A DNA stretch of 64,000 nt from Geomonas azotofigens. GTDB lineage: Bacteria > Desulfobacterota > Desulfuromonadia > Geobacterales > Geobacteraceae. Made by a program: the position numbers and the translations under genes. Under the pieces are notes generated by a model. It had not been told where the DNA came from. It worked only from the letters and a program-made list of their open reading frames with translations, and made no database searches. The stretch covers positions 1 through 64,000 of the forward strand of contig NZ_JAHLME010000004.1 of assembly GCF_018919395.1 (NCBI RefSeq), read 5' to 3'. Numbering within the stretch: the first letter of the stretch is position 1; every line of letters begins with the position of its first letter. This document shows, piece by piece, positions 7,268 through 54,856 of this stretch.

Positions 7268-7388
7268 GTTTGATCGCGCATGTTTTTCCATCGGGCGCAT
7301 TGCTATGACGGCAAAGTTGAAGCAAAATACTGGACTAGAGAGTGATTTCCTGCACAGCAACTGACAGCGGCAGTTTGAGCGTGTGGAT

Positions 7389-9991: not shown

Positions 9992-12483
<2,492 letters not shown>

Positions 12484-12487
<4 letters not shown>

Positions 12488-14679: not shown

Positions 14680-14715
14680 CACGGGGGACGCCCCGCCAAG
14701 CGACAGGGAGCGGAA

Positions 14716-15981
14716 ATGACAAAGAGCAGAGCAAATATCCTGGTGGTCGACGACACCCCGGCCAACCTGCAGTTGCTGGAGTCGATCATCCAGGAGCGCG
14801 GCTACACCGTCCGGGCCGCCATCAACGGCCGGCTGGCCATCAAGGCGGCGCGGCTCCAGGTCCCCGACCTGGTCATGCTGGACATTAACATGCCCGAGAT
14901 GAACGGCTTCGAGGTCTGCCGGGAACTGAAGGGCGACCCGCGGCTGGCCGGCATCCCGGTGATCTTCGTTTCGGCGGCGGTGGAAACCGCGGACAAATTG
15001 CGCGCCTTCGAGGAGGGTGGGGTGGACTACGTCACCAAGCCGTTCCAGCCGCTGGAGGTGCTGGCCCGGGTGGAGACCCACCTCGAACTGGCCCGCATGC
15101 GCGCCGAGCTCGAGCGGCAAAACGGGGTCCTGGCACAGACGCTGCGGGACCTGACCCGGGCGCAGGCGCACCTGGTGCAGTCCGAGAAGATGGCGGCGCT
15201 GGGGCTTCTGACCGCCGGCGTCGCCCACGAACTCAACAACCCCCTCAATTTCATCTCTGCCAGCGTGCAGGGGCTGCAAAAGACCGTGGCCCCGGTTGAC
15301 GAGCTGATGGCGCTGTGCCAGGACCTCTCCGGGACGGCGCCCGACGAGGCGCTGCGGCGCATCCGGCACTGGAGCAGCCAAAACCACCCGGGCGAGTTGC
15401 GCCAGGACATGAACGAGCTGGTCAGTAACGCCTGCTACGGCGCCAACCGGGCCGCCGAGATCGTCGCCAGCCTGCGCATATTCTCCCGCCTGGACGAGGC
15501 AGACAGAAAGAGCGTCAACCTGCACGAGTGCCTGGATGCGGCGCTGCTGCTTTTGCACAACCGCTACAAGGACCACATCCGCATCGAACGCGACTACGGC
15601 GACCTCCCCCTGTGGCTGTGCCAGCCGGGACGGCTCAACCAGGTGTTCATGAACCTGTTGGGCAACGCCGTGGACGCCATCGACGCCAAGTCCGCTCCCG
15701 CGGGTGACGACGAGATCCGGATCAGCACCAGGATGCAGGAGCGCGACGGGCGCTGCTGCGCCGTGGTGGAGATCGCCGACACCGGCACCGGCCTGAGCGA
15801 CGAGGTCAGACCGCACCTCTTCGAGCCTTTCTTCACCACCAAGGAGGTGGGGAAGGGCGTCGGCCTCGGGCTCGCCATCTCCCACGGCATCATCCGCGAC
15901 CACCAGGGGAGCATCGAGGTGGAGAGCCGGGCCGGGCAGGGGACCCTGTTCCGGGTGGTGCTGCCGCAGTTTGAAGCCTAG
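14716..15981 (+). CDS. Receiver-histidine kinase without membrane sensor
   Basis: 421 residues, start supported by AGGGAGCGGA. An N-terminal receiver (ILVVDDTPAN, phospho-Asp in MLDINMP about 56, KPF lysine) is followed by a coiled coil, a phosphoacceptor domain (AGVAHELNNPLNF, His about 171) and HATPase (NLLGNAVDAI, GLGLAISHGI). It has no membrane helix, so it is cytoplasmic and probably takes its signal by phosphotransfer to its receiver, likely from the neighbouring kinases. Lies between the CHASE kinase and the multi-domain kinase in one operon. Confidence 0.88.
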   Translation: MTKSRANILVVDDTPANLQLLESIIQERGYTVRAAINGRLAIKAARLQVPDLVMLDINMPEMNGFEVCRELKGDPRLAGIPVIFVSAAVETADKLRAFEEGGVDYVTKPFQPLEVLARVETHLELARMRAELERQNGVLAQTLRDLTRAQAHLVQSEKMAALGLLTAGVAHELNNPLNFISASVQGLQKTVAPVDELMALCQDLSGTAPDEALRRIRHWSSQNHPGELRQDMNELVSNACYGANRAAEIVASLRIFSRLDEADRKSVNLHECLDAALLLLHNRYKDHIRIERDYGDLPLWLCQPGRLNQVFMNLLGNAVDAIDAKSAPAGDDEIRISTRMQERDGRCCAVVEIADTGTGLSDEVRPHLFEPFFTTKEVGKGVGLGLAISHGIIRDHQGSIEVESRAGQGTLFRVVLPQFEA

Positions 15982-15997
15982 GAAAGGAAGTGACGTC

Positions 15998-18277: not shown

Positions 18278-18298
18278 GGGTACCTGGTGGGAAAAGGC

Positions 18299-18316
18299 CT
18301 CCCCGGCGGCGGGGAG
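18299..18316. terminator. GC-rich hairpin between convergent genes
   Basis: CTCCCCG pairs with CGGGGAG around a 4-base loop in the gap between two converging genes. There is no T run, so it is a weak or bidirectional transcript end at best. Confidence 0.45.
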
Positions 18317-18380
18317 TCTCGAGGCTAATCCGGGCCTAGGGGAGGGGTGGAGCGGAGAGGAGCGGTGCGCCGCAGCGGCC

Positions 18381-21248
<2,868 letters not shown>

Positions 21249-40250: not shown

Positions 40251-40673
40251 ATGGTCGAGTCAGGGAAGGTGCATTTAAGGCTGCAAGCAATGACTGCTAT
40301 CGCCTTGGGTGGCATGCTCTTCTTCGAGATGGGCGAAGCCAACGTCTACCATCAGACCAGCGCTAACCACATCCTGACCATGGCAGAATGCATGGCCTGC
40401 CACTCTGAAGACTCCACCCGACCGGTTTCCATCTGTCTCGATGATCACTGCCTGTATTCCAATGACCACCCGGTGCTGCGCCGGTATCCCCCTCCGGCGA
40501 AAGCGGACAAGTTCGCGCCGGTGTCGGACCTGCTGGCGGCCGGTTGCGTTCTGGAGGACGGCAAGATCACCTGCCTTTCCTGCCATAACCTGACCAAGCC
40601 GGCGCCGCACCTGGTCAGGGACGGCGACGAGCTCTGCTACATCTGCCACAGGTACCTGCGGTCCACCTACTGA
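40251..40673 (+). CDS. Three-heme c-type cytochrome
   Basis: 140 residues with a signal peptide-like start (charged residues then AMTAIALGGMLFF). Three heme-binding motifs are seen: CMACH (47-51), CLSCH (108-112) and CYICH (129-133). An extra Cys pair (62 and 67, ICLDDHC) is not a CxxCH. It resembles the doubled-motif multiheme cytochromes of electron-transferring anaerobes and should be periplasmic. An ATG at 40290 would shorten the signal peptide but lose its basic residues. Monocistronic. Confidence 0.8.
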   Translation: MVESGKVHLRLQAMTAIALGGMLFFEMGEANVYHQTSANHILTMAECMACHSEDSTRPVSICLDDHCLYSNDHPVLRRYPPPAKADKFAPVSDLLAAGCVLEDGKITCLSCHNLTKPAPHLVRDGDELCYICHRYLRSTY

Positions 40674-40758: not shown

Positions 40759-43700
40759 ATGCGCCGTCGCCTCCTTGCCTACATCAGTACCCTCCGCGTC
40801 AGACGCGTCCTCTTCGTCGGCTGCATCCTGGCGTTGTCCGCCCTGCTCCTGCTGGTGCTGCTGGTGGTGTCGATGCCGGCCATCCTTTCCACCGATCCCG
40901 CACAGTCCCTGCTGCGGCTGGGCATCTCCAGGGCACTGAAGAAGCCGGTTTCCTGGTCCGACCTCCAGGTCTCCTGGTCCGACGGCATCGCCCTTACCGG
41001 CCTTGTGTTGGGGGACGGTCCGCCGCCGCTGCTGCATGCGTCCCTGCAGCAACTGCACCTGGAGCCGGGCCTTTCCCGGGACAAGGCGACCAGGCGCTGG
41101 TGCGTGCGCATCGACCTCAAGGTGAAGAAGCTGGAGGCAGAGCTGGCGCCGGGTCCCCCGAAGCCCCCCGAGGCGAAGCCGGTCAAGGATCCGCTCACCC
41201 GTATCGCCGAAGGGGTACAGAAGTTCCAGTCCCTGGAGTGGCCGCTGCCGCTCGATCTGCGCCTCTCCGTCGACGCTTCCCCCATGAAGTTCTCCTACGC
41301 CGATCCCGTCTCCAAGCGCGAAGCGCTCTTGAGCGACTTCTCCTTCGGCCTCGCCGTACCGTCCCTGGGCAAACTCCCCATTCGCACTTCCGTTTCCGGC
41401 AAGGTCGCGGTGGACGCGGGCAAGCCGCAGCCGATCACCCTGAGCCTGGAGGTCGCCGACCTGGTCACCGCCGCCTACCGTATCAAGCCCGCGGCGGCCT
41501 CGCTGGCGGCACGTGCGGATCTTCCCGGAGTCGCCTTCAGCGCGGCCGGCGGGGTGACGCGACCGGAGGGGCTCAAGGCGAACCTGGCACTTTCCCTCCC
41601 GGAGCTCGCCCGACTCGCTGCCCCCTTCGCCAAGAAGCCACTTCCCGAGATCGCCGGGAAACTGGGGCTCGACCTCAAGGCCCAGGCCGACCGGGCGGGG
41701 GACCTGCGGGTGGCGCTCGCCCTGGACGGCGACGGACTGGCGGTGAGCCGGCTCCCGGGCAGGAAGGCCGGCCTCGCCCCGCTGGACCTGCACCTGCGCC
41801 AGAAGCTGGTCAGTAACCACGAGCGCCAGCAGGTGGCGTTCGACGAGGGGAGCCTGGCCAGCCCCGGACTCATCACCGCGTCCTGGCACGCGCTGGTCGA
41901 TCGCCCCACCGAAAAGTCGCGCAGCGTGGCGGCGGAGCTGGGGCCGTTGCGCCTGGACCTGGGTCGGGCCCGGCAGGTGGCGGCGCCTTTCCTGCCCAAA
42001 AACCTTCCGGTGCGGGATTTACAGGGGACGGCATCCCTCGCCAGGCTGAGCGCGCGGCTCAAGGGGCCGGACAACGACGGGACCGTGCAGATCGAGAAGC
42101 TGGGGCTGGAGCTGCCGCGGCTGCAACTGGCGCTTGCGGGAGGCCCCCTGCAGGGGGAGGGGATGACCCTCTCCCTAGACAAGGGGATGATTCCCCTGAG
42201 AAAGATGAAGCCGGTGCGGGTAGCGGCCGACCTCTCCTGGTCCGGGCGCCGCGTTGACCTCGCGGGGAAGAAGCCGGTCCGTATCGACGGCATGAAGGGG
42301 GGCGTGAGCCTCGTCCTGACCGAGATCGACCTGAAGGGGAAACGCGCCCTGGTCGACGCCCGGCAGAAGCTGGAGCTGGAACGGGCCACCGTGGGGAGCG
42401 AACTGGCGCTGGAGCAGTTGCGGGAGGATCTGGAACTGAAGGCGCGCGCCTTTAGCGGCGGCGCCCTGGACCTGGCGCTCCCGGCGCTGCAGGTTTCCGC
42501 GAAGAGCGTGCAGGCCCATCAGCAGGGTAAAGACGTGACGCTGCACCCCTTCACCGCCCGCCTCGCCGCCGAAGGGGTGCACCTGCCGCCCAAGGGGCAG
42601 GGGAGCCCGACCGTGCAGCGCGCCACCTGCTCGCTCTCCGCGTCCGACGCGCTGGCCTTCGACGCCGAAGCGGCGCTGACCGGGCAGGGGCGCCAGCTTG
42701 CCGCCAGCAAGGGGAAGCTGCGCCTGGACTTGCGCCGCCTGATGCCAATCGCGCGCCCGTTCCTTCCCGCCGGCTTCGACGCCGCGGGGCTCGCCGCCGC
42801 CTCCTGGGATATCGCGGCGCCGCTGCCGGTGCCCCAACTCGCCAAAGAAGAGAACCCGCTGCGCAAGGCGAAGGGGAGCCTGGCGTTACTGGAGCGCGCT
42901 GACCTGGCGCTCACCCTGGACGACCTGGACCTGCGTCTCCCCAACGCCCAGGGGAGCTACCGGGTGCAGGGGCTTGCCACCGCGCCGCAACTGCGCCTCG
43001 CCCTGCCGCACCCCGGCGCGCCGCTCACCGTGGATGGCGCTTTCCGCTTCGCCTCGGTTAACGGCCTTTCCGGCACGGCCGGGACCCTGCCGCTGCAGGC
43101 CGGGACGCTGACCCTGCAGGGGGATTTGGCGGGGTGGAAGGAGTTGCGGCTCACCGAAGAATTGAAGGTCGCCTCGCTGGGGCTCTCGCAGATCGCCGAC
43201 CTCACCGTGGGGCGCATCGACGCGCTCCTGGAGGATCACGGAGGCAAATTCGACGCCGCCACGCTTTTGAAGCGCCTCGACGCCACCATGTTCGCCCACC
43301 TGGAGGGGACCTTCCCGGCCGAGGCGAAGAAGGTGCTGGCGGGTTGGCAGTTGGCGGGGAACGTTTCCGCCGGCGCGCGCGTCGACCTCACCGCGGCGCG
43401 TGAACTGAGGGTGCGCGGCTACGGCAAGTGCCGCGACTTCGGGGTGGCGGACGGCAAGGGGGTGGCGGCCAGCGGGGTCCGGGCCGACCTGGTGCTCGAC
43501 CGCAGCTACGCCCTGGCGCAGGCGCAGGGGAAGGGCGAGGAGTGGGTGCCGCTTTCGGCCGGGCTGGTGCGTCCGGCGCCGGTGACATCCTTGGGTGCGG
43601 CCAATTCCGATCTCGCCGCCCGCATCTACGAGGACCTGCGCGGGCTGATGGGGGCGCCGCGCAAGATAAGCGTCCAGCGTGCCTCCTTCAAGTCCGGCGC

Positions 43701-44376
43701 GGTCCCGCTCGAGGCGAACGCCTTGGAGGCGGATCTCCTCCTCGAACCCGAGGCGCTGGGGGTGAGCTTCTTCCAGGCCGAGGTGGGGGGAGGAACGGTG
43801 CGGGCACGGGGCATGATCGATCTCTCCCGCGAGGTCCCGGTACTCACCACCTACTGCAATTTCTCGAAGCTGGACCCGGTGCTTCTCTTCCCGGCGGCGG
43901 GGGGGCAGCGTCCCGGCGGGGAAGGTGAGCTGACCGGCGAATTGAGCCTGTCGGCGCCGCTTGCCACCGAGCAGCGCGCGCTCCTGGAGGGGATGCGCCT
44001 GAACCTCAACCTGCGCCGGTTCAGTTCGCGCATCCTGGACCGCGTCCTCTTCGCGCTCGATCCGTACCAGCGCAACGAGAAGATCGTGGCGCAGCGTAAA
44101 TCGTTGCAGACCGCTGATTTGAAGGGGCTGCGGGTCAGCGCCGTCGACGGCGCCCTCGACTGCGAAGGGGAGCTGGCCGTCAAGGGGATCGACATCGCCA
44201 TCCCGAGGATCGAGCGTCTGCGCCTCTCCGAGCTTCCCATCCAAAACGAGTTGAAGCGGCTCCTCGTCTCTATCGCCTCGTCCCGGACCCTCCTGGACCT
44301 GGTCCGTTCCGACACCCTGGTGATCGACGAAAAAGGCAAGCCGTCCCTGAAAAGGAGGAGCAATGCGGGAATCTAA
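40759..44376 (+). CDS. YdbH/AsmA-like intermembrane bridge protein
   Basis: 1205 residues. One N-terminal membrane helix (about 17-40, LALSALLLLVLLVVSMP) anchors a very long periplasmic part of repeating short beta strands with LxLxL patterns, typical of AsmA-like/TamB-like proteins that form a lipid groove across the periplasm. The last 150 residues (NLNLRRFSSRILDRVLFALDP region, then VKGIDIAIPRIERLRLSEL) recall YdbH. The next gene is a DUF1318 lipoprotein like YdbL, and in Escherichia coli ydbH, ynbE and ydbL form one operon. So a role in phospholipid transport to the outer membrane is inferred. Confidence 0.75.
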   Translation: MRRRLLAYISTLRVRRVLFVGCILALSALLLLVLLVVSMPAILSTDPAQSLLRLGISRALKKPVSWSDLQVSWSDGIALTGLVLGDGPPPLLHASLQQLHLEPGLSRDKATRRWCVRIDLKVKKLEAELAPGPPKPPEAKPVKDPLTRIAEGVQKFQSLEWPLPLDLRLSVDASPMKFSYADPVSKREALLSDFSFGLAVPSLGKLPIRTSVSGKVAVDAGKPQPITLSLEVADLVTAAYRIKPAAASLAARADLPGVAFSAAGGVTRPEGLKANLALSLPELARLAAPFAKKPLPEIAGKLGLDLKAQADRAGDLRVALALDGDGLAVSRLPGRKAGLAPLDLHLRQKLVSNHERQQVAFDEGSLASPGLITASWHALVDRPTEKSRSVAAELGPLRLDLGRARQVAAPFLPKNLPVRDLQGTASLARLSARLKGPDNDGTVQIEKLGLELPRLQLALAGGPLQGEGMTLSLDKGMIPLRKMKPVRVAADLSWSGRRVDLAGKKPVRIDGMKGGVSLVLTEIDLKGKRALVDARQKLELERATVGSELALEQLREDLELKARAFSGGALDLALPALQVSAKSVQAHQQGKDVTLHPFTARLAAEGVHLPPKGQGSPTVQRATCSLSASDALAFDAEAALTGQGRQLAASKGKLRLDLRRLMPIARPFLPAGFDAAGLAAASWDIAAPLPVPQLAKEENPLRKAKGSLALLERADLALTLDDLDLRLPNAQGSYRVQGLATAPQLRLALPHPGAPLTVDGAFRFASVNGLSGTAGTLPLQAGTLTLQGDLAGWKELRLTEELKVASLGLSQIADLTVGRIDALLEDHGGKFDAATLLKRLDATMFAHLEGTFPAEAKKVLAGWQLAGNVSAGARVDLTAARELRVRGYGKCRDFGVADGKGVAASGVRADLVLDRSYALAQAQGKGEEWVPLSAGLVRPAPVTSLGAANSDLAARIYEDLRGLMGAPRKISVQRASFKSGAVPLEANALEADLLLEPEALGVSFFQAEVGGGTVRARGMIDLSREVPVLTTYCNFSKLDPVLLFPAAGGQRPGGEGELTGELSLSAPLATEQRALLEGMRLNLNLRRFSSRILDRVLFALDPYQRNEKIVAQRKSLQTADLKGLRVSAVDGALDCEGELAVKGIDIAIPRIERLRLSELPIQNELKRLLVSIASSRTLLDLVRSDTLVIDEKGKPSLKRRSNAGI

Positions 44377-45058
44377 AACGGGTTCTACGTTCTGCGTTCT
44401 ACGTTCTACGTTTGAGTGGACGAAAGGACGTTCGAGGTTCAACGTTCAACGTTTGCAGCGCCGTCCATGGTCCATTCCCGCCGTCGCCATCGCGCTGCTG
44501 CTGGCGCTAAGCTCCGGCTGCACCCTGGCCAAGGTCGACGTCAACGTGGTGAGCGAGCGGACTTCGCTGGAAAATCAGGTGCTCGGCACCTACAACGCGC
44601 TCTCGGAGGACGTGCTCCTGGTGGCGTCGGTGCGCGGGGTGTCGCCCACGGGCAAGGTGGAAACGCCGCCCAAACATTCCCCGGAACAGCAGGAGGCGGC
44701 CCAGGCCCTGGAGAATATCGCGTTCCACGCCGACGATGTCGAGGCCCTGAAACGGCTGGGATGGGTGGGGGAAAACCTGGAGGGGACCCTGACCAGCTTC
44801 AGCCGCGAGGTCCCGGAAAAGGCCCCGGCCGACCTGAAGGCCTTCGCCGGTCGCTTCGGAGAGGGTGAGTTCCGCCAGGTAGTCAATGAAGTCAACCGCT
44901 CCCGCGAGATCCTGATGCTCAGGGTGGTGCAGACCAACGAGAACTTCACCGCCAAGGACCTCCCCGCCATCCGCAAGGTCTTCGCGCGGGTGAACCGCCA
45001 GAACAGCGCCCCCGGCACCAGGGTGCAGGAGGACGACGGGAAGTGGGTAACCCGATGA
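44363..45058 (+). CDS. YdbL-like (DUF1318) lipoprotein
   Basis: 231 residues; AGGAGG sits just before the ATG at 44363, which lies inside the end of the previous gene. A lipobox (LALSSGC, Cys 53) follows a normal hydrophobic core, but some 30 extra residues (up to NVQR) precede it and are coded by heptamer repeats. An in-frame TTG at 44453 would give a standard lipoprotein signal instead. The C-terminal 60 residues (QVVNEVNRSREI, DLPAIRKVFARVN, APGTRVQEDDGKWV) match DUF1318/YdbL, which helps YdbH and YnbE. Here lipid anchor and YdbL domain are in one chain, so it may combine YnbE and YdbL roles. Confidence 0.78.
   Translation: MRESKTGSTFCVLRSTFEWTKGRSRFNVQRLQRRPWSIPAVAIALLLALSSGCTLAKVDVNVVSERTSLENQVLGTYNALSEDVLLVASVRGVSPTGKVETPPKHSPEQQEAAQALENIAFHADDVEALKRLGWVGENLEGTLTSFSREVPEKAPADLKAFAGRFGEGEFRQVVNEVNRSREILMLRVVQTNENFTAKDLPAIRKVFARVNRQNSAPGTRVQEDDGKWVTR
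44383..44451 (+). repeat. Heptamer repeats inside the lipoprotein gene start
   Basis: Four tandem heptamers TTCTACG/TTCTGCG (44383-44410) and, after a 20-base gap, TTCGAGG-TTCAACG-TTCAACG (44431-44451). They lie between the ribosome-binding site and the lipoprotein signal. Seven is not a multiple of three, so a copy-number change would shift the frame. Confidence 0.75.
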
Positions 45059-48000
45059 ACGCCGCAACCAGGAAGATCACCCTGTTGCTGGCCGTGGCCG
45101 CGCTCCTCTCCGGGACGGCGCAGGCGGTGCCGCTGGGTGAGGAACTGCTGGCCCCGGCGGCGCCGCGCCCGGCCCCGCGCTCGCGCCCGGAGGTCGCGCC
45201 GACGCCGGCGGTCTACACCCCGCAGTCGGTGCTCTACGCGGCGCGCTCCCGGGACGGCAGGTGGACCGCGACGGTGGAGAAGGGGGACGCGGGGTACGAG
45301 CTCTGGCTGCACCCCGCCGGCAACGGCGCCGAACTGCCGCGCCTTCTCACCAAGGGGCCGGTGCGCATCTCCGCTCCCGCCTTCGACGCCACCGGGACCA
45401 GGCTCGCCTACGCCGACGAGCGCGACGACCTGAAGGGGGACATCTGGCTCATCGACCTGGCCAGGCCGGGCGCGGAACCGCGTCGGCTGACCGGCAACGA
45501 CGCCGGTGAGGACGCCCCGGGCTTCGCCCCCGACGGCAGCGCCGTCTATTACCAGCGCCAGCTCCCCGGTGCCGAGCGGCGCGACCTAGTGCGCCTGGAG
45601 CTCGCCTCCGGCAAGGGAGAGGCGCTCCCCATCGGCATCGACGCGGCTTTCGCTGCGGTTTCTCCCGACGGCAACCGGATCGCCTTCGTCTCCCGCGACA
45701 AGGATCCCGGTGGCGACCTCTGGCTCTGGGACAAACAGGGCGGACGCCTGACCCAGTTGACCGCCGGCGCCGAGCGCGACCTCTACCCGGTCTGGCAGGA
45801 CGCCGAGACCCTCCTCTTCACCCGCTTCGCGCCCCCAGCCGGGGATGCGGCCAACGGACCGGACGGTGGCGCCGTGTTCCGGCTGCGGTTAACGCGTGAC
45901 GGAAGCCACGGCTTCCCGGCCGCCTTCCCGCTCACTTCAGGCCTTCTTTCCACCGCGGCCCCGATCCCTGCCGGCGAGCGCGTGCTCTTCGTGGCGGGTG
46001 CGGCGGCGGGGGGGCAGGTGCTGTCGCTGCCATCCTCCGGCGAGATCCCGGAACAGGCGGATGCCGCCGCCCAGTGGCAGGTCGCCCGGGTGATCCTGGA
46101 GCGCCAGCCGGCGGACCCGGCCACGGCGCGCCTTGCCTGCCTGCGCGTGCTGGCGCGGGAGGATGCCCCGACCCGGGAAGGGGCGCTGGCGTCCTTGGCT
46201 TTAGCCGGGCTCCTGGAGCAGGGGGGTGAGCGGGCCCAGGCGCAGGACCGCTACGCCGAGGCGGCGCTGCGCTACGCCGCCTTCCCGGAAGCGGCCCTGG
46301 CCGAGATCGCCCGGCTGCGCCTGGAGGCGGAGAGCCGCTGCGAAGAGGTGGTGGTCGCGGGACGCCGTAAGGGTGTCATCGCCGACGCGCAGGAGGATAT
46401 GCTGCGGGCGGCGAAGGGGAAGGGGGCGGACGCGACGGCCCGGGCCCTGGTGGACGGCGCACGGCTCCAGGCCGAATACGGTTCCGGCGCCGAGGACCAG
46501 TTGGCCGCCATCGCCCGGTTCGAGAAGGCGCTCGCCGAAGCTGCCGCCGCTCCCGACATCCTGGCCGAGGCGGCCTACCGCCGCGCGCGGCTTTTGGCCC
46601 GCATCGAGGGCGGGGAGGGGTCGGTCGCGGCCCTGGTCGAGGTGGCCAAGAAGTACGACCGGCAGGAACAGTGGGCCGAGGCTGCCATCGCCGAGATCCT
46701 GGACCAGCTGACCGCGAAGAACGCCGACGCGCGCGAGCGGCTGGCGGCCCTGGCCGAGCAGTACCGCACGAGTCTACCGCGTCTCGCCATGGGGGCCTGG
46801 AACCGGGTCGGCGATCTCGCCTACCGCGGCGGCGACTGGGTCCGCGCCAAGGACGCCTACCGCACCGTGCTGGAGCAGTTCCCCGCCATCGCCACCCCGA
46901 CCGCCGCGGCCCGCTTCGCGCTGGCCGAGATCCTCTACCGCGAGGAGCGCTACGGCGAGGCGACGGCGCTCTACGAGAAGGAGATGGGGGAGCACCCCGA
47001 GGACGCGCCGCTGTACCAGCTGGCCCGCGCCGCCTACCTGAGAAAGAGCCTCGCCGCCGGCGAAAGCCTGTACCGGCTGGGCGAGGTCTCCGCCGCCCGC
47101 GCCGCATTCCTCGATCTGATCCGCTACGAGGGGAGGAGCCTCGAGGCGCACCGCGGCTACATCAAGTCGGTCGCCGCGCAGGGGCAGGCCCCGGAACTGC
47201 TGGCGCTGTACCAGAAGATGCTGCACTCCTATCCGGACGATCCCGTCCTCCTCTACGGCGCCGGGCTCTGCCACACCTACCTCCCGGGGAAGGATGCCCT
47301 CAAGGAGGGGGACCGCCTGATCGCGCGCGCCGCCGAGCGGCTGCCGGGGTCCGAGTACCCCTTCCAGACCCGCGGTTACATCGCCGAGGTCCTGGAAACG
47401 GTGCATGGCGAGCAGGGCGGGCTGGAGCGGGCGCTGAACCTCTACCGCCGCGCCAAGCTTTTGAACCGTCCCCAGGAGAACCCGGAGAACAGCGCCAACC
47501 TCTCGCTCAACATCGGCAACATAGCCTATCTTTTGGGGCGCAACGCCACGGCCTGGAGTTTCTACAGCCAGCGCCTGGCCGCCAAGGTCCCCTTCGACAA
47601 CGTCGACACCGAACTCCTCTTCGAGCAGCGCTACGGCGCGGTCGCCTTCCAGGTGGGAGAGAAACAGGCCGCCATCGACGGCTACGGCCGGGCGCTGAAG
47701 CTCGCCGAGTCCCGCCTCGATCCGGCCCGATCCCTGGAGCAGTTCGGCCGCCTGACCCGGCGGGTGAACGAACGTCTCTTCGCCGGCCAGAAGCTCTCCC
47801 CCCAGCAGGAGCAGCGGCTTGGCGAACAGCAGGCCATCAACGCGGAGCTGGAATTGCTCGGGGCGGACCGGGTCGAAGCCCCTCCCGCACCGGGGTGGCA
47901 GAAGTTCGACGCCGCCCTCAGGACCCTTCTGGCGCGGCAGCGCAAGCTGATCGCCGCGGCCTGCACCGGAGTGCCGCAGGGGGACAAGTTCCTCGTGGAG

Positions 48001-51000
48001 CTGAACGGGATGGCGGGCGCCGTGGAGCGCGAGCTCGACAACGTGCCGCGCCTGGTGGAGACCGGGGCGGAGCTTAATGATCGGCTCGGCCTTGCCAACT
48101 TCGACGCCGAACGCTTCCAGCCGGCCCTGGCGCACTTCGACCAGGCCTACCGGCTGAACCGGGCCCTCGGGCGCCACGCCAACCTGGCCGCCAACCGCCG
48201 CTCGGCGAGCATCGCCGCCTACCGCCAGGCCGAGACCGCCTCCGGCGCGGAGAAGAAAAGGCTCCTGTTGCTGTCCCGGGACGGTTTCACCGAGGTGCTG
48301 GCGCTTTTGGACCAGTACCCTCCCGAGAAGAAGAGCGCACCCAAGCGCGGCGGCGGATTGATCAACGTATCCGCCAACGTCGCCCTCAACAAGGGGGGCG
48401 CCACCGAGGCCGCGTACGGTTTCTCGGCGGAGCAGGAGCGGCGCCTGGCGCAAAGCTACTTGGCGCGCATCGCCACCGACCTCGGCGACAACGCGGCGGC
48501 CGAAAAGCTCTTCAAGGAACTGCTCGGGCGCTACCCGGAGCGGGTGGACCAGGTAGCCGAGGGGGATCTCTTCGGGGTGGGCCTTCTGAGCCACCGCGCC
48601 GCCCAGCTCGCCTACGCGCGCGGCGACCGCGCCGCGGCAGCCGCCGGTTTTAAAAAGGCGACCGCCATCGCGCTCAAAAACGGCAACGCCGTGGGTGCCA
48701 TGTTGAACCTGGTCAACTGGGGGATGCTGCTGCCCCAGGATGCCGCGCCGGGCGAGGTGGCGGAGTTGCTGGAGTCGCAGGCGGCCTGCTCGGCGCTGGC
48801 CGACTCCTACCGCGCCGCCCTTCCCCCGGATGCCGTGGCCCGCTACGGCAACGATGCCGGCGCCATCCTGGCGCGGCTTGCCGCCGGGCGTGCCGACGAG
48901 GCCAGCAGGCAGGCGCTGTTGTACAAGGCGGTAGCCGCTTGGGACAAGGTGCTGAAAGCCGGCGCGGCAGTGGGGGGGGCGAATGATTATTCGCCCCTAC
49001 AGGGACGGCACACCGTGGGGGCACGCCTGGCGGCGCGCCTGAACCGGGCGGCGACGCTTGCCCAACTGGGGCTTGCCGAGGCGGCCAACGCCGGCTACAC
49101 CACCGCGCTCGCCGAGGCGCGCGCCGCCGGCAGCGACGCAATGGCCTGGCGCGCCCAGGCGGCCCTGGGCGACTACGACGGCGCCCTCAAAATCCTGGAT
49201 CGGCTCCCTCCCACCGACTACGACCTGCGCCTCGGCGAACTCACGGAGCGCTTCTCGCCGCGCATCGAGGCGCTGACCGTCAAGGACCCGGAGCAGGGCT
49301 TCGCCCTGGTGGAGCGTCTCTCCGAAGTGGAGCGGGTGCAGATCCTGGGGCGGAGCCTCCTCGGCGTCGACGATGACGCCACCGTGGAACTCCTGGCCAA
49401 GGCCGCACCGCACCTGGCCGAGTTGGACCGGGTGCGCGCCGCGTTTGCCAAGGCCGCACCGGAGGATGCCGCTTATCTCAAGCTGCGCGCGCAGCAGGAA
49501 GAGGCGGTCCTGGACGCGCTCCTGGGCAAACAACGGGAACTCCTTCCCCCTTACTACGCCGTCGCCGGCCCCGGCGCGCTCCGCCTCGCCGCATCGTCGG
49601 CCGCACTTTCCAGCGGCAGCCCTGCGGAGCGCGACCGCTTCGCCGCCCTTCTTACCTCCTTCCGCAAGGAGTGCGCCTCCGGCAAGGGAGCGAAGCTGTG
49701 CCAGGCCCTGACGCCGCAGCCGGCCGAGGCGATCGATGTCATGGAACGCCTCGCCGGGCGTCCCGTGCTGCGCCTGGTCGCGCTCCCCGGCGACCGCTTC
49801 CTCGTCTTCGCCTTTGGCACGAAGGACGGTGTCAGCGCCCAGACCCTGCCGCGCGCGGCCGTCGCGGCGCGTTTGAACGACCCCGAGGAGGTCGCCATCT
49901 ACGAACGCCCCGAGCAGTTCGCCTCGGCCAGGCCGCTCAGTTGGGGGGTGAGCGCCAGCCAGTTGCTGAAGAGCGTGGAGGGACGCCGCCCCCTGCGGAC
50001 CCGGGTGCTCGACCCGGCTGGGCTGTGGCCCGCACAGGCGCCCTTTGCCAAGCTCCCGGCGGACTCTCTCCCGGCTCGCCTTCCCGATGCCCATACCCTC
50101 GCGCTTCCTGCCGCCGCTGGGCTTCTTCCTTCGGCTCCCAACCGTCCCGGTGCCGGGGGCGCGTACAGCGCCGCCTGGGAGGATGCCGCCGGCGTGCGCC
50201 ACGACCTGGTGCAGCTTGCCGACGGCGACTCGGTGTCGCTGCTGCTGGCGCCCAGAGGGGGGACGGGACAGGCGTGGTACCTGGGGCAGTTGGCCTCGCT
50301 GATCGGGGTGCCGAGCCTCCTTTTGGGTGACCGCTCCGCCGATCTCGCCCCCTTCGCCAAGAGCTACGCCGACCGCTCGCTGGCCCAGGCGCGGCGGGAA
50401 CTCCCCGGGGACTGGCTCTTGATCGGCGACTGGGGGGGCGACGCCGCCGAGAGCGCCACGCTCGCCAAGAAGCTCTTCAGCGACTACGTGAAAAAGGCGG
50501 TGCAGGCGCACAACGACGGGCGCTACGCGCAGGCCCTGGCCCTCTTCGACAACGCCCTGGTGGTTGCCGAGGCGACGCCGGAGCTGGCCAAGAACCGCGC
50601 CGCGCTGCACCGTCACGCCCGCGAGAGCGCCTTCGGCGCCGGCTTCACCGAGCGCGCCGTGAGCCATGCCGAGAGCCTCGTGCAGCGGCTGGCCAAGGAG
50701 AAACCGTATTCCGCCGAGCACGCCGACGCCCTGTTGCGGCTCGGGCTGTTACAGGGGCGCCTGGAGCACTTCCATGAGGCGACCGCCGCCCTCAAGGAGG
50801 GGATCTCCATCTTCGCCGACTTGGGTCTCGCCAAGGACCGGGCCGCCGCCCTCTCCGATTTCGGCGTGGTCATGGAAAATGCGGTCGATTACCCCGCCGC
50901 GCGCTCGCTCTTCGAGGAGGCGGCCGGGCTGCGCGCCCAGTTGAAGGACGAACTGAATCTCGCCGACCAGTACCGCAATCTCGGGCGCATCTTCGACCTG

Positions 51001-53307
51001 CGCCTGAACCAGTTCGCGGTCGCCGAAAGCTACTACCGGAAGGCCCAGGAGCTCTACGCGAAGAACGGCAGCGCGGCCCTTGAGGCCGAGACCATCCTCG
51101 AGCGCGGCCGCTGCCAGCGCCTCCTGGGGAACTTCCCCGCCGCCGATCTCCTCTACCGCGAGGCGCTTGCCAAGGTGGGCAACTCCGAACTGAAGACCCG
51201 GATGCGGATCGTCCTGGAGCAGGGGAACAACGCCTGGTTCCAGGGGCGCTACCAGGAGGCCTTCGACCTGCGCGAGCAGGTGGAAAAGGCGGCGCTCAAG
51301 GAGAACTGGGCCCTGGAGCAGGTGATGGCCAAGAACACCGGCGGCCTGATCTGGTGGACCCTGGGGGACAACAGCCGCGCCCTGGTGGAACTGAGGCAGG
51401 CCCTGGAGCTGGCCGGCAAACTGGAGGTCCGCCGCGACGAGAGCGCCACCACGCTGAACAATATCGGGCTGGTGCGGCGCGAGTCGGGCGACTACCAGGG
51501 GGCGCTGGAGAGCCTCGGTCAGGCGCTCGCCATCGACCGCGCCCTGGGCTCGCGCTGGGCCATCGCCTACGACCTGAGAAACCTGGGGCAGACCCGGCTC
51601 AAGATGGGTGACCCGGCCGGCGCGCTGAAACTCCTCACCGAGGCGGCGGGACTTGCCGACGCCATCGGCGACAAGGTGAACCAGGCCAAGATCCACCTGG
51701 CGCTGGGAGACGCCCGGGCCCGCAGTAACCAGGGCGCCCCGGCGGCGGAAAGCTACGGCAAAGCCTTGGAGCTCGCCGACGCCATGCTGCTCAGGGAGGT
51801 GCGCTGGCGCGCCCTGCTCGGTCTCGCTCGCTTGAAGGAAATAGGTGGCGACCGTGACGGCGCCGTCGCCTCGTACCGGCAGGCGCTGGAGACGGTGGAG
51901 GGACTGCGCGCCGAGATCAAGCTGGACCAGTTGAAGGACGGCTTCCTGGCCGACAAGATGGACGTCTACCAGGGGCTGGTCGGGCTCCTGGTGGAGCTCG
52001 GCCGCCACGACGAGGCCTTCGCCGTCGCCGAGCGCTCCCGCGCCAGGAACCTGATCGACATCCTGGGGCGGCAGCGGCTCTCGCTCGCCGGGGGCGCGGA
52101 CCAGGACCTCTACGACCGCCAGGGGCGGCTCAGGGAGCAAATCCAGGAGCAGGAACAGCTCGCGCTGCAGGCGGCTACCCCCGCCGAGCGCGCCATGTAC
52201 GCGGCCGCGCTGGACAAGCTGCGCGGGGAGTACCAGGACCTCCTGCTCGACATCGAAAGGCGCCGCCCCGAGCTCCTTTCGCTGGTGAAGGTGGCCCCGG
52301 TCACCGTTGGCGAGGTGGAGTCCCTGCTGGAGCCGGGGGTGACGCTGTTATCCTACTACCAGCTCCCGGACCGGCTCCTGTGCTGGCGCCTGGAGCGGCA
52401 GGGCTCGCGGCTCTTCGTGCTCAAGGTCTCGGCGCGCGAGGTCGCCGACAAGATCGCCACCTACCGGCGCATGCTGCAGAACCTGGAGCCGCTGGAACAG
52501 AACTCCCGGGAGCTGTACCGGATCCTCCTCGCCGAGCCGCTCACCGGCGTACCCGAGGGGCAGACCGTCGGCATCGTCCCGCACGGCAGCCTGCACTACC
52601 TCTCCTTCGCCACCCTCTACGACGGCAGGGACTACCTGGTGGACCGGCACACCCTGTTCCACCTCCCGGCCGCCTCGGTGTACCGTCACACCCTGGCCCG
52701 GCGCCAAGCCGCCAAGAACCTGCGCATACTGGCCATCGGCAACCCGGATCTGGGCAACGCCGCGCTGGATCTCCCCTTCGCCGAAAAGGAGGCCGGGACG
52801 CTGCGCTGGAACTACAGCGACGTGACCACCCTGACCCGGGAGCGGGCCACCGAGAGCTGGGTGCGTGAGAACATCGCCAGGTTCGGTATCATTCATCTCG
52901 CCTCGCACGGCGAGTTCGACACCGTCAACCCGCTCTTCTCCTCGATCCGGCTCGCCAAAGACGGCAAGAACGACGGCCGGCTGCAGGCCGAGGAGGTGTT
53001 CGGGCTGGACATCAAGGCGGACCTGGTCGTCCTCTCCGCCTGCCAGACCGGCCTGGGGGACGTGAAGAGCGGCGACGACGTGATCGGCATGAACCGCGCC
53101 TTCCTCTTCGCCGGGACCCATGCCCTGGTCTCCAGCCTCTGGCGCGTCTCCGACGTCTCCAGCGCCATACTGATGAAGCAGTTCTACCGGGACTACAGCC
53201 GAAGCGACAAGGCCCAGGCGCTGAGGCTCGCCATGCTGCACGTGAGAAACCGTTACCCGCACCCCGGTTACTGGGGGGCGTTCGTATTGACCGGCGATTA
53301 CAAGTAA
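45055..53307 (+). CDS. Giant exported TPR protein with C-terminal CHAT protease domain
   Basis: 2750 residues from the ATG at 45055, which overlaps the previous TGA (ATGA). A signal peptide (cleavage near GTAQA, residue 23) shows export. Residues about 60-330 are TolB-like beta-propeller blades (RLLTKGPVRIS, GGDLWLWDKQGGRLTQLT). Long TPR arrays follow (about 340-1500 and 1800-2350). The C-terminal 300 residues are a CHAT (caspase-like) domain with catalytic His 2618 (HLASHGEFD) and Cys 2663 (LSACQTGLG). A region near 1540-1815 looks like a second, dead CHAT copy. A REP sequence is inserted in frame near residue 1310. CHAT-TPR proteins elsewhere act as proteases; a periplasmic one beside an M48 protease suggests envelope control. 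Confidence 0.88.
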   Translation: MNAATRKITLLLAVAALLSGTAQAVPLGEELLAPAAPRPAPRSRPEVAPTPAVYTPQSVLYAARSRDGRWTATVEKGDAGYELWLHPAGNGAELPRLLTKGPVRISAPAFDATGTRLAYADERDDLKGDIWLIDLARPGAEPRRLTGNDAGEDAPGFAPDGSAVYYQRQLPGAERRDLVRLELASGKGEALPIGIDAAFAAVSPDGNRIAFVSRDKDPGGDLWLWDKQGGRLTQLTAGAERDLYPVWQDAETLLFTRFAPPAGDAANGPDGGAVFRLRLTRDGSHGFPAAFPLTSGLLSTAAPIPAGERVLFVAGAAAGGQVLSLPSSGEIPEQADAAAQWQVARVILERQPADPATARLACLRVLAREDAPTREGALASLALAGLLEQGGERAQAQDRYAEAALRYAAFPEAALAEIARLRLEAESRCEEVVVAGRRKGVIADAQEDMLRAAKGKGADATARALVDGARLQAEYGSGAEDQLAAIARFEKALAEAAAAPDILAEAAYRRARLLARIEGGEGSVAALVEVAKKYDRQEQWAEAAIAEILDQLTAKNADARERLAALAEQYRTSLPRLAMGAWNRVGDLAYRGGDWVRAKDAYRTVLEQFPAIATPTAAARFALAEILYREERYGEATALYEKEMGEHPEDAPLYQLARAAYLRKSLAAGESLYRLGEVSAARAAFLDLIRYEGRSLEAHRGYIKSVAAQGQAPELLALYQKMLHSYPDDPVLLYGAGLCHTYLPGKDALKEGDRLIARAAERLPGSEYPFQTRGYIAEVLETVHGEQGGLERALNLYRRAKLLNRPQENPENSANLSLNIGNIAYLLGRNATAWSFYSQRLAAKVPFDNVDTELLFEQRYGAVAFQVGEKQAAIDGYGRALKLAESRLDPARSLEQFGRLTRRVNERLFAGQKLSPQQEQRLGEQQAINAELELLGADRVEAPPAPGWQKFDAALRTLLARQRKLIAAACTGVPQGDKFLVELNGMAGAVERELDNVPRLVETGAELNDRLGLANFDAERFQPALAHFDQAYRLNRALGRHANLAANRRSASIAAYRQAETASGAEKKRLLLLSRDGFTEVLALLDQYPPEKKSAPKRGGGLINVSANVALNKGGATEAAYGFSAEQERRLAQSYLARIATDLGDNAAAEKLFKELLGRYPERVDQVAEGDLFGVGLLSHRAAQLAYARGDRAAAAAGFKKATAIALKNGNAVGAMLNLVNWGMLLPQDAAPGEVAELLESQAACSALADSYRAALPPDAVARYGNDAGAILARLAAGRADEASRQALLYKAVAAWDKVLKAGAAVGGANDYSPLQGRHTVGARLAARLNRAATLAQLGLAEAANAGYTTALAEARAAGSDAMAWRAQAALGDYDGALKILDRLPPTDYDLRLGELTERFSPRIEALTVKDPEQGFALVERLSEVERVQILGRSLLGVDDDATVELLAKAAPHLAELDRVRAAFAKAAPEDAAYLKLRAQQEEAVLDALLGKQRELLPPYYAVAGPGALRLAASSAALSSGSPAERDRFAALLTSFRKECASGKGAKLCQALTPQPAEAIDVMERLAGRPVLRLVALPGDRFLVFAFGTKDGVSAQTLPRAAVAARLNDPEEVAIYERPEQFASARPLSWGVSASQLLKSVEGRRPLRTRVLDPAGLWPAQAPFAKLPADSLPARLPDAHTLALPAAAGLLPSAPNRPGAGGAYSAAWEDAAGVRHDLVQLADGDSVSLLLAPRGGTGQAWYLGQLASLIGVPSLLLGDRSADLAPFAKSYADRSLAQARRELPGDWLLIGDWGGDAAESATLAKKLFSDYVKKAVQAHNDGRYAQALALFDNALVVAEATPELAKNRAALHRHARESAFGAGFTERAVSHAESLVQRLAKEKPYSAEHADALLRLGLLQGRLEHFHEATAALKEGISIFADLGLAKDRAAALSDFGVVMENAVDYPAARSLFEEAAGLRAQLKDELNLADQYRNLGRIFDLRLNQFAVAESYYRKAQELYAKNGSAALEAETILERGRCQRLLGNFPAADLLYREALAKVGNSELKTRMRIVLEQGNNAWFQGRYQEAFDLREQVEKAALKENWALEQVMAKNTGGLIWWTLGDNSRALVELRQALELAGKLEVRRDESATTLNNIGLVRRESGDYQGALESLGQALAIDRALGSRWAIAYDLRNLGQTRLKMGDPAGALKLLTEAAGLADAIGDKVNQAKIHLALGDARARSNQGAPAAESYGKALELADAMLLREVRWRALLGLARLKEIGGDRDGAVASYRQALETVEGLRAEIKLDQLKDGFLADKMDVYQGLVGLLVELGRHDEAFAVAERSRARNLIDILGRQRLSLAGGADQDLYDRQGRLREQIQEQEQLALQAATPAERAMYAAALDKLRGEYQDLLLDIERRRPELLSLVKVAPVTVGEVESLLEPGVTLLSYYQLPDRLLCWRLERQGSRLFVLKVSAREVADKIATYRRMLQNLEPLEQNSRELYRILLAEPLTGVPEGQTVGIVPHGSLHYLSFATLYDGRDYLVDRHTLFHLPAASVYRHTLARRQAAKNLRILAIGNPDLGNAALDLPFAEKEAGTLRWNYSDVTTLTRERATESWVRENIARFGIIHLASHGEFDTVNPLFSSIRLAKDGKNDGRLQAEEVFGLDIKADLVVLSACQTGLGDVKSGDDVIGMNRAFLFAGTHALVSSLWRVSDVSSAILMKQFYRDYSRSDKAQALRLAMLHVRNRYPHPGYWGAFVLTGDYK
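48974..49004 (+). repeat. REP palindrome inserted in frame in the CHAT gene
   Basis: GGGGCGAAT-GATT-ATTCGCCCC with the flanking CTACAGGG is the same repeat as at 34.3 kb, in the same orientation. It codes GGANDYSPLQG and keeps the frame open. It falls between two TPR stretches. Confidence 0.8.
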
Positions 53308-53358
53308 ATTCGACAGCACGGCCGGAGCGAGATCCGGCCGATCCACGGAGGTGAATCC

Positions 53359-53868
53359 ATGAAGAAGAGAGCTTTGGGCGGCGCGCTGCTGCTCCTGGCG
53401 CTGTGCGCGGGCCAGGTGCTTGGCGCCGAGAAACGCTGGGTGGTGAGCGAGGGGACCACCCTCAAGAAGGAACAGTCGGTGACTGCTGCGAACCTGGCGG
53501 ACCTGCCGGTGGGCGCGGAACTGACGCTCGTGGAAGGCGAGGGGCGCTGGCTCAAGGTGCAGACCGCCGACGGCAAGGAGGGGTGGGTCTACGCCGGGCG
53601 CGTTTCCGACACCCAGCCCGTTGCCGAGGTGGGCGGGGGTGACGGCCTTCTCGGGGACAGCATGCAGAAGAGCCAGATCAACACCGCCAAGGCCGACAGC
53701 GCCCGCAGCGTGCGCGGCCTCTCCCCGGAGACCGCCGCCTACGCCAAGCAGCACGGCACGCCGGAGGCCCTGAAGAAGGAGCTGGACAAGATCCTGGCGC
53801 GCAAGGTTTCCAACAACGATGTCAAGGCCTTCCTCAAGGAAGGTAAAATCGGCGAGTACGCCCAGTAA
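53359..53868 (+). CDS. Exported SH3-like domain protein
   Basis: 169 residues with GGAGG upstream and a signal peptide ending near VLGA (residue 23). Residues 25-85 are a bacterial SH3-like domain (LPVGAELTLVEGEGRWLKV, GWVYAGRVSD), usually binding peptidoglycan or peptides. The C-terminal part is helical and charged, with no known motif. It lies between the CHAT gene and the M48 protease gene with short gaps, so it belongs to the same operon. Confidence 0.82.
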   Translation: MKKRALGGALLLLALCAGQVLGAEKRWVVSEGTTLKKEQSVTAANLADLPVGAELTLVEGEGRWLKVQTADGKEGWVYAGRVSDTQPVAEVGGGDGLLGDSMQKSQINTAKADSARSVRGLSPETAAYAKQHGTPEALKKELDKILARKVSNNDVKAFLKEGKIGEYAQ

Positions 53869-53878
53869 GGAGGGAGCC

Positions 53879-54769
53879 ATGAACAAACTACGTCTTTTAC
53901 CGCTGGTGGCGCTCTTCTGCCTGGTCGCGGCACAGGCCCACGCCGGATGGCAGGACACCATCAACAACCTCATGAAACCGGATTCCAAGGAAGGAAAGAT
54001 CCTCTCCGGGGCCACCCAGGTGCTCTCCTCGTCGCAGGAGATGACCTACCAGACCGAGTGCACCGTGGGCGAGAGCCTCGCCCTGGACAGCATGCAGCGC
54101 TTCGGCAAGCCGGTGCAGAACGAGGCGCTGCAGAAGTACGTGAACCTGGTGGGGAACGCGGTGGCCAGAAACAGCCGGCGCTCCACCATCCCGTACCGCT
54201 TCGTGGTGCTGGACAGCCCGGTGCAAAACGCCTTCGCCGCCCCCGGCGGCATCGTCTTCATCAGCCGGGGGCTCCTCGACGTCCTCGACAACGAGGCCGA
54301 GCTCGCCGGGGTCCTGGCCCACGAGGTGGGGCACGTGGCCGAGAAGCACGCGCTGAAAAGCATCCGGCGCGCCCAGTTCCTGCAGGGGGCCAGCGCCATC
54401 ACCGCCGCCACCATGAAGGGGAGCAAGGGGCAGCAGTTCGAATCGATGGTCGGCGACCTGCAGAACACCCTCTTCGACAAGGGGCTCGACCAGGGGATGG
54501 AGTACGAGGCGGACCAGGCCGCGCTGGAGACCACCTACCGCACCGGCTACGACCCTGCCGCCTTGGTCAGCGTGCTGCAAAAGCTCAAGAAACAGGAGGC
54601 GACCGCGGCCAAAACCGGCTCCTGGTTCTCGACCCACCCGCCGCTGGACGAGCGGATCGCCAGGCTCTCGGCCCAGCTCGCCAAGTACCCGGCGGCAGGG
54701 TCGGCGAAGCTTCCCGCCAGGTTCGCGAAGTATGTGAAGCCTGCGAAGGGCGGTAAAACGACCAAGTGA
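53879..54769 (+). CDS. Periplasmic M48 family metalloprotease
   Basis: 296 residues; AAGGAGGGAGCC precedes the ATG at 53879. Signal peptide cleavage near AQAHA (residue 22). The zinc site reads HEVGH (His 148, Glu 149, His 152), with a third ligand Glu in EYEAD (about 208-211). The family includes BepA/LoiP, which clear misassembled outer-membrane proteins. It has no TPR of its own, in contrast to BepA; the TPR-rich CHAT protein two genes upstream could supply that role. A terminator follows. Confidence 0.9.
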   Translation: MNKLRLLPLVALFCLVAAQAHAGWQDTINNLMKPDSKEGKILSGATQVLSSSQEMTYQTECTVGESLALDSMQRFGKPVQNEALQKYVNLVGNAVARNSRRSTIPYRFVVLDSPVQNAFAAPGGIVFISRGLLDVLDNEAELAGVLAHEVGHVAEKHALKSIRRAQFLQGASAITAATMKGSKGQQFESMVGDLQNTLFDKGLDQGMEYEADQAALETTYRTGYDPAALVSVLQKLKKQEATAAKTGSWFSTHPPLDERIARLSAQLAKYPAAGSAKLPARFAKYVKPAKGGKTTK

Positions 54770-54820
54770 GGTGACCGGCTGTCATAGTCCAGCGGACTGT
54801 GGCGGTAACTCTCAGAAAAG

Positions 54821-54856
54821 AAAAGGGGAGGCTCAAAGAGCCTCCCCTTTTCTTTT
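54821..54856 (+). terminator. Strong terminator of the YdbH-CHAT operon
   Basis: AAAAGGGGAGGCTC and GAGCCTCCCCTTTT pair around a 3-base loop, followed by CTTTT. Ends the five-gene operon. Confidence 0.9.

Follow-up and report, generated by a model that had tools for sequence, protein, structure and literature searches.

What brings the genes of a candidate lipid bridge, of a giant CHAT protease and of an M48 metalloprotease together on one strand of a Geomonas azotofigens genome? The question is raised by positions 40759-54769 of a 64,000-nucleotide stretch of DNA (the window; contig NZ_JAHLME010000004.1, positions 1 to 64,000 of the forward strand). Five open reading frames (ORFs), all on the plus strand, encode there an AsmA-superfamily protein, a DUF1318 protein, a giant protein built of a propeller, tetratricopeptide repeats (TPRs) and a CHAT domain, an SH3 protein and an M48 metalloprotease. 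This gene unit is conserved, and its five genes are inherited together. As a tentative explanation, which we hold to be plausible though somewhat short of an even chance, the unit would provide a dedicated, protease-controlled lipid bridge of the cell envelope, in which a separase-like protease has a regulatory role and M48 and SH3 form an arm for quality control.

Organization and conservation of the five-gene unit

The AsmA-superfamily gene (40759..44376; 1205 amino acids, aa) and the gene of the putative DUF1318 lipoprotein (44363..45058; 231 aa as listed) overlap by 14 nt. The latter overlaps the gene of the giant (45043..53307; 2,754 residues, predicted to be exported) by 16 nt if translation of the giant begins at the GTG, or by 4 nt (ATGA) if it begins at the alternative ATG at 45055. 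A gap of 51 nt leads to the gene of the putatively exported bacterial SH3 protein (53359..53868). For the M48 metalloprotease, also probably exported and carrying the motif HEVGH (53879..54769), the ATG at 53879 with the ribosome site GGAGGGAGCC in front is a better start than the listed one at 53819. It gives a protein of 296 aa and a gap of 10 nt behind the SH3 gene. The unit is followed on the plus strand by a terminator-like hairpin (54816..54856; 19-bp stem, 3-nt loop) with a folding energy of -33.3 kcal/mol (z -6.5), and none of 200 shuffled sequences folded equally well. The layout described in an earlier note on this DNA, i.e. five same-strand genes with overlaps or short gaps and a closing terminator, is therefore present. 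In addition to the ORFs themselves, the assignments are based on Pfam matches of the window proteins (DUF1318 9.6e-7, CHAT 5.5e-57, PD40 2.3e-10, many TPRs, SH3_3 8.6e-8, M48 1.1e-35), on alignments for the DUF1318 protein and, for the first gene, on an AlphaFold2 (AF2) model and family matches of its orthologues.

The genome of the window comprises 4.97 Mb, and its DUF1318 gene is closest, among named relatives, to Geomonas species. A strong match to the AsmA-superfamily protein was found in 47 of 141 genomes of the order, not counting a weak match in G042 (E 5.5e-4). The giant was also matched at E 1e-131 or better in 46 of these 47 genomes, in some of them in contig-end pieces; the only genome without such a match is G082, which is 78% complete. 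The note had proposed to refute its operon by looking for the five genes in relatives. Besides the genome of the window, 46 genomes are positive. The loci of 40 of them were examined in this way (G081, G082, G085, G089, G095 and G112 were left out), and the outcome was favourable: all five genes occur in the same order and on the same strand in 36 of the 40 loci. Three of the remaining four are not judgeable, since L079 and L096 run into the end of a contig and L078 has its CHAT gene split between contigs; the fourth, L097, shows neither SH3 nor M48 gene in the 20 kb seen. Since order and strand of the unit are conserved even across orders, chance is untenable as an explanation. A small gene with three CxxCH motifs (c-type cytochrome-like; 40251..40673, plus strand) lies directly 5' of the unit. 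It is present in 13 of 13 loci of the same genus and in none of the 27 other order-level loci, and the most frequent flanking gene family occurs in only 15 of 68 loci. Thus, the five genes are kept, but not their surroundings.

The main rival explanation is co-regulation without contact. The unit would then be an operon for envelope stress or for the biogenesis of the outer membrane, its bridge and its proteases acting in parallel on different clients. A CHAT-SH3 gap of up to about 0.9 kb in some relatives speaks for it, as do a loose SH3-M48 linkage and the existence of AsmA-DUF1318 genes without adjacent CHAT, including a pair located elsewhere in the genome of the window (see below). However, the AsmA-DUF1318-CHAT order lasts across orders while the surrounding genes change, and the overlapping junctions recur in relatives. 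We regard co-regulation alone as rather unlikely, although it has to be taken seriously.

G027, a genome of the same family in which no AsmA gene of the operon kind was detected, contains at C98:16787-17143 a 119-residue piece that shares 77% identity with the end of the giant; it is either a contig-edge fragment or a remnant.

Distribution beyond the order

In a sample of the phylum, the DUF1318 subfamily was found in 13 of 395 genomes, 11 of them outside the order. CHAT adjoins DUF1318 in nine of these 11, and AsmA was recognised by profile in seven of the nine; in the other two, one contig begins too near and one contains an unrecognised upstream ORF of 1,449 aa. One of the nine loci (L115) has no SH3 or M48 gene within the stretch seen. 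For a distant DUF1318 protein of the subfamily (L122 in G200, E 1e-38), 10 kb of its 12-kb contig were seen, and neither AsmA nor CHAT is present there.

A genome collection of 84,980 species yielded 144 confirmed loci, of which the best 80 were analysed; the organisms overlap with those of the 40 order-level loci. Their titles name Geomonas, Citrifermentans, other Geobacteraceae, Desulfobacterales, Desulfobulbaceae, Deferrisomatales, Desulfovibrio, Humidesulfovibrio, Desulfocurvus and one Nitrospirota bin. Among the assessable loci, 75 of 77 have AsmA upstream of DUF1318, which makes this the tightest pair of the unit, and 72 of 78 have CHAT downstream. The SH3 gene was present in 42 of 51 loci and the M48 gene in 37 of 44, where assessable required only about 1.1-1.4 kb beyond CHAT. 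The values for the 44 far loci outside the Geobacteraceae-like set (L160-L204 without L165) are 39/41 for AsmA, 36/42 for CHAT, 14/21 for SH3 and 10/15 for M48. Compared to the AsmA-DUF1318-CHAT core, SH3 and M48 are thus linked more loosely. The locus L189 from the Nitrospirota bin (Candidatus Magnetocorallium), which has no adjacent SH3 or M48 gene either, lies out of the phylum and points to transfer or to bin contamination.

The AsmA-superfamily protein and the DUF1318 lipoprotein

For the window AsmA protein itself, neither Pfam nor NCBIfam gives a match at 0.1. Among 35 members of its family (the window protein included), 18 match DUF748 (best 1.8e-16), 17 YhdP (2.2e-10) and 15 AsmA (6.5e-14) at E <= 0.1. 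Judged by these model matches of its relatives, the first gene product is a member of the AsmA superfamily. The earlier note had called it AsmA/YdbH-like, but the YdbH label finds no support: PF11739 (YdbH-like) was matched by none of the 35 members at E <= 0.1, and the hhalign comparison with the single E. coli YdbH sequence was not significant. Nowhere in the genome does PF11739 exceed its cut-off; the best score, 15.8 of 26.3 bits, belongs to another gene. The AF2 model (mean predicted local distance difference test, pLDDT, 79; predicted template modelling score, pTM, 0.50) shows a putative membrane helix at the N-terminus (residues 2-43), a long all-beta body and a low-confidence C-terminal helix. 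An N-terminal fragment of Vps13 matches model residues 46-254 with Z 9.8, amid many barrel rows, and AsmA profiles found no match among the sequences of solved structures. We consider the protein a candidate trans-envelope lipid bridge.

The window DUF1318 protein matches PF07027 with 29.7 bits (cut-off 27), and 20 of 20 DUF1318 members do so at E <= 1 (best 6.6e-9). The kinship with E. coli YdbL suggested by the note holds, since hhalign aligns a homologous C-terminal domain with a probability of 94.6 (E 7e-8). The cysteine of the lipobox (codon 44519-44521) is followed by a near-invariant segment, TLAKVDVNVVSERTSLENQVLG. In 82 of 86 DUF1318 proteins the anchor position reads Cys-Thr/Ser, while a strict lipobox is found in 60 of 86. 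The post-anchor segment is almost invariant in 20 order-level sequences and, farther out, still recognisable at 37-58% identity. A short motif of the SVRG-x-SP kind that looks conserved is common to the DUF1318 protein (SVRGVSP) and the SH3 protein (SVRGLSP), possibly by chance.

The N-terminus of the DUF1318 protein was tried as a YnbE homologue and rejected; only the lipobox was aligned, with a probability of 18. A separate YnbE gene, which the note's comparison with E. coli would imply, is missing between AsmA and DUF1318, as the two ORFs overlap (the remaining genome was not searched for YnbE), and the predicted lipid anchor is carried by the DUF1318 protein itself. In E. coli, YnbE supplies a strand and YdbL acts as a chaperone. 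The unit shares with E. coli ydbH-ynbE-ydbL an AsmA-superfamily gene followed by a DUF1318 gene whose product is homologous to YdbL. It differs in that the large protein is not detectably YdbH and in that the anchor lies inside the DUF1318 protein. Furthermore, the annotation of the 10-kb ydbH stretch of E. coli contains no gene for a CHAT, SH3 or M48 protein. The partnership of YdbH and YnbE in E. coli is reported in two papers, one of them PMC12977461. Among Creative Commons-licensed PMC papers, to which all literature searches refer, only unrelated work on DUF1318 was found, and the five-gene system was not found described among the matches listed for AsmA-like proteins and DUF1318.

The invariant post-anchor segment bears on another explanation, in which CHAT is a maturation factor making one required assembly cut in DUF1318 or AsmA rather than responding to stress. 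A precedent is the CHAT protease Csx29, which cleaves Csx30, the product of a neighbouring gene (PMC10028731). The segment could equally well be a docking strand, however, and AsmA-DUF1318 pairs exist without adjacent CHAT. This alternative appears clearly unlikely to us.

Predicted export of the gene products

A strong N-terminal hydrophobic window was present in 73 of 76 AsmA, 79 of 86 DUF1318, 75 of 78 CHAT, 54 of 55 SH3 and 50 of 53 M48 proteins, compared to 46 of 131 ORFs taken as controls from these loci. This hydropathy test is crude and no trained signal-peptide predictor; the stretch considered was 70-170 residues depending on the family and 120 for the controls (38/131 at 70), giving a slight bias towards the longer ones. 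On this basis all five products are predicted to be exported or membrane-anchored, which for the CHAT giant agrees with the export proposed in the earlier note. We found no description of a periplasmic CHAT protease in the literature searched. A search combining CHAT, signal peptide, TPR and periplasm had as its sole match a paper on hypermutation, a different system. When CHAT domain was combined with TolB, lipoprotein, periplasmic or outer membrane, or Geobacter, none of the matches listed contained a CHAT domain.

The giant protein carries a CHAT protease domain with a conserved His/Cys dyad

The giant consists of a signal-peptide-like start, a propeller, TPRs and CHAT, in this order. The PD40/TolB-like beta-propeller comprises about residues 56-340 (45208..46062, plus strand; limits approximate), where PD40 is over its cut-off and TolB, with 43 bits, below. 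The best-conserved regions are the C-terminal CHAT domain (52504..53298, plus strand) and two stretches of TPRs, at about residues 600-850 and 2050-2350. A segment following the signal peptide (45130-45192, PLGEELLAPAAPRPAPRSRPE) is also strongly conserved in the order-level loci and is possibly a docking peptide.

The CHAT domain was assigned by Pfam (PF12770) and by alignments. Its catalytic residues are His2622 (codon 52906-52908), present in 42 of 42 giants, and Cys2667 (53041-53043), present in 41 of 42, the remaining one having a gap. Asp2704 (53152-53154) is likewise found in 41 of 42, again with one gap. Together with the conserved HExxH of the M48 protein, the intact His/Cys dyad is in line with the earlier view of both proteins as proteases.

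Separase is the enzyme that separates our chromosomes. Compared to the sequences of solved structures, the CHAT domain alone matched Csx29 chains (5e-4 to 4e-3), while the whole giant matched only designed TPR and PINS chains, and a profile of its CHAT region only designed TPR. His2622 and Cys2667 align with the catalytic dyad of Csx29, i.e. H585 and C627 (PMC9729208). In separase an aspartate reads the arginine at P1; Csx29 has a lysine instead of this aspartate (PMC9729208). The giant keeps Asp2704 near the site where Csx29 lost this aspartate, although the residue correspondence is itself inferred, and from Asp2704 we infer that its CHAT domain may have an Arg/Lys cleavage preference. The NCBIfam Csx29 model gave 39.6 bits for the giant, below its cut-off of 300, and no Cas7-11/gRAMP partner is encoded among the five genes (the genome was not searched for Cas7-11). 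Thus, the giant shares with Csx29 and separase a helical-repeat scaffold and a caspase-like protease, but it is predicted to be exported, has an N-terminal propeller, is nearly four times as long as Csx29 and contains two CHAT modules, one of them apparently dead.

Some TPR-CHAT proteins are defensive (Craspase), so that a defence or programmed-death module at the envelope has to be considered. For the giant, however, PADLOC gave no more than a generic TPR model and a weak match to BovA (2e-5), and none of the other four proteins was matched. AsmA-type bridges maintain the outer membrane in E. coli and Pseudomonas (PMC10900882), and the conservation of the CxxCH neighbour throughout the genus is unlike a mobile island. 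We think that a role in defence is extremely improbable.

An internal module of the giant resembles separase

A second module of the CHAT type lies inside the giant at about residues 1380-1820 (49180..50502, plus strand). Residues 1380-1845 were modelled from 41 sequences with high confidence (pLDDT 92.4, pTM 0.91). When the 1,000 best chains from Foldseek were realigned by VIA-align, separase reached Z 15.4 over a length of 266 residues, and Csx29 reached Z 14.0. Separase, TPR-CHAT, DdvA, central-pair or gingipain chains account for all 37 rows with Z >= 8 (8.7-15.4), and the next row has 6.6; it has to be kept in mind that helical models can reach Z 14 in VIA-align. Foldseek alone gave no significant match for the module (best separase, E 0.055). 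A first profile comparison with the active CHAT domain was negative, while a second one with more diverse sequences gave a weak hhalign match (P 5e-4; probability 31 local, 62 global). Pfam CHAT was found in the module of one of 41 members at 0.005. We accept, on the VIA-align result, that the modelled module has the separase/CHAT fold.

No cysteine column of the module exceeds 50% except that of residue 1395 (23/42), which lies in the N-terminal helical part, and no histidine column is above 33/42. Cys 1544, Cys 1553 and His 1823 are invariant in the 20 order-level sequences, but not in the wider set. Because cysteine and histidine are not widely conserved at the catalytic places, the module is read as a pseudoenzyme and looks catalytically dead.

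Another structural match of the module is DdvA (Z 13.5), a transmembrane anti-sigma factor for which no activating signal is known (PMC4374960). This would suit a periplasmic sensor, in which stress on the bridge causes CHAT to cut an anti-sigma factor or another signalling protein; the Csx29 cut of Csx30 has been proposed to lift the inhibition of a sigma factor (PMC10028731). On the other hand, there is no sigma or anti-sigma factor gene among the five, the flanking families not being annotated. A sensor of this kind seems very unlikely.

The SH3 and M48 proteins

SH3b domains bind peptidoglycan. The C-terminus of the SH3 protein is conserved and ends in IGEYA plus one residue. In eight of the 80 loci SH3 and M48 are fused into one protein; seven of the eight fusions are present in the tree and belong to one clade of 10 rows, whose other three rows show neither gene.

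HExxH was found in 37 of 37 M48 proteins, and the window protein matches the family model at 1.1e-35. The nearest NCBIfam models, BepA and LoiP, describe envelope proteases, and neither reaches its cut-off; for BepA, the M48 protein scored 94.6 bits against an equivalog cut-off of 570. In E. coli, BepA acts on LptD (PMC8423444). Like BepA, which gives its best NCBIfam score, the M48 protein is predicted to be exported and is tied to a presumed envelope lipid-transport machine. It differs in its length of 296 aa, with M48 as the only domain recognised, and in being paired or fused with an SH3 protein.

A second AsmA-DUF1318 pair in the same genome

The only other DUF1318 match of the genome, with a lipoprotein-like start, adjoins an AsmA/DUF748 gene of 1,184 aa (G000:C1:270078-274371; L210:9076-13372, minus strand). 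The giant is the only CHAT match of the genome, and none is found at this second pair. Both loci thus have the two-gene unit in common, while the second pair lacks CHAT and its AsmA is of the DUF748 type. This identifies AsmA-DUF1318 as a recurring unit.

The second AsmA gene was matched in 76 of the 141 order genomes, in two of them weakly. For the comparison, 74 genomes were counted as positive, leaving out the weak G132 and G135 and keeping the partial G100 (1.9e-16). Outside genus g1, to which the window belongs, it occurs in 7 of 33 genomes with the CHAT system compared to 48 of 89 without (Fisher p 0.002, kinship ignored) and, among genomes at least 90% complete, in 7 of 31 compared to 39 of 63 (p 0.0004, kinship ignored). 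In genus g23 the values are 6/30 and 6/9 (p 0.014), whereas in family f3 alone the anti-correlation is not significant (0/2 vs 8/11, p 0.13). These figures fit a partial functional replacement of one AsmA system by the other. AsmA-like proteins are redundant in E. coli and Pseudomonas (PMC8593681; PMC10900882).

In the one-contig genome G045 (L066) both the CHAT gene and the second AsmA gene, located elsewhere, are split into two ORFs each, and the ORF of DUF1318 is short, owing to sequence errors or decay.

A possible mechanism

If the five products act together, the AsmA-like protein would be anchored in the inner membrane, span the periplasm and conduct lipids along a beta-groove, and the lipidated DUF1318 protein would take its far end at the outer membrane, uniting the jobs of YnbE (anchor, strand) and YdbL (chaperone) in one chain. 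The giant would dock onto the bridge assembly via its propeller and TPR scaffold and be kept inactive until a signal appears, e.g. a misassembled or idle bridge. Once activated, it might make one or a few specific cuts, most likely in the DUF1318 or the AsmA protein, by which the bridge is released or rebuilt. The SH3 protein on peptidoglycan and the cutting M48 protease could clear failed assemblies, as BepA does for LptD. We know of no earlier AsmA-type bridge with dedicated proteases of its own. A further-reaching version, in which the separase principle operates outside the cytoplasm and a giant with a dead and a live CHAT switches the bridge, with a peptidoglycan-tethered M48 protease as backup, is possible but doubtful.

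Several observations weigh against a dedicated, protease-controlled bridge. The loci L183, L193, L196, L201 and L202 contain AsmA-DUF1318 without adjacent CHAT, L170 contains DUF1318 alone and L189 DUF1318-CHAT without adjacent AsmA, which means that the parts can live apart. Among the assessable far loci, 7 of 21 show no SH3 and 5 of 15 no M48 beside CHAT. Genus g1 holds both AsmA-DUF1318 systems in 14 of 14 genomes, and over all 141 genomes the anti-correlation between them is not significant (21/47 vs 53/94, p 0.21). Furthermore, the AsmA model reaches only moderate confidence, generic outer-membrane barrels make up most of its PDB matches, and no substrate cleavage site for the giant was identified.

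Neighbouring genes

Upstream of the unit, TetR and ABC1-kinase genes are located on the opposite strand. A large protein encoded at window positions 24-3641 has fn3 and several purple-acid-phosphatase N-terminal domain matches, and positions 7383-21248 encode several histidine kinases and response regulators with Cache, CHASE and PAS domains.

Implications

The phospholipid route to the outer membrane and the partners of AsmA-type bridges are unsettled (PMC12977461). The fixed gene order in many anaerobic soil and sediment bacteria suggests a protease-controlled building of the outer membrane. If this is true, Geomonas and Citrifermentans strains would possess a natural bridge with built-in proteolytic control, and a separase-like protease would be located in the periplasm. 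Named isolates of both genera are culturable and harmless, and the second pair, which lacks CHAT, would serve as an internal comparison within one genome.

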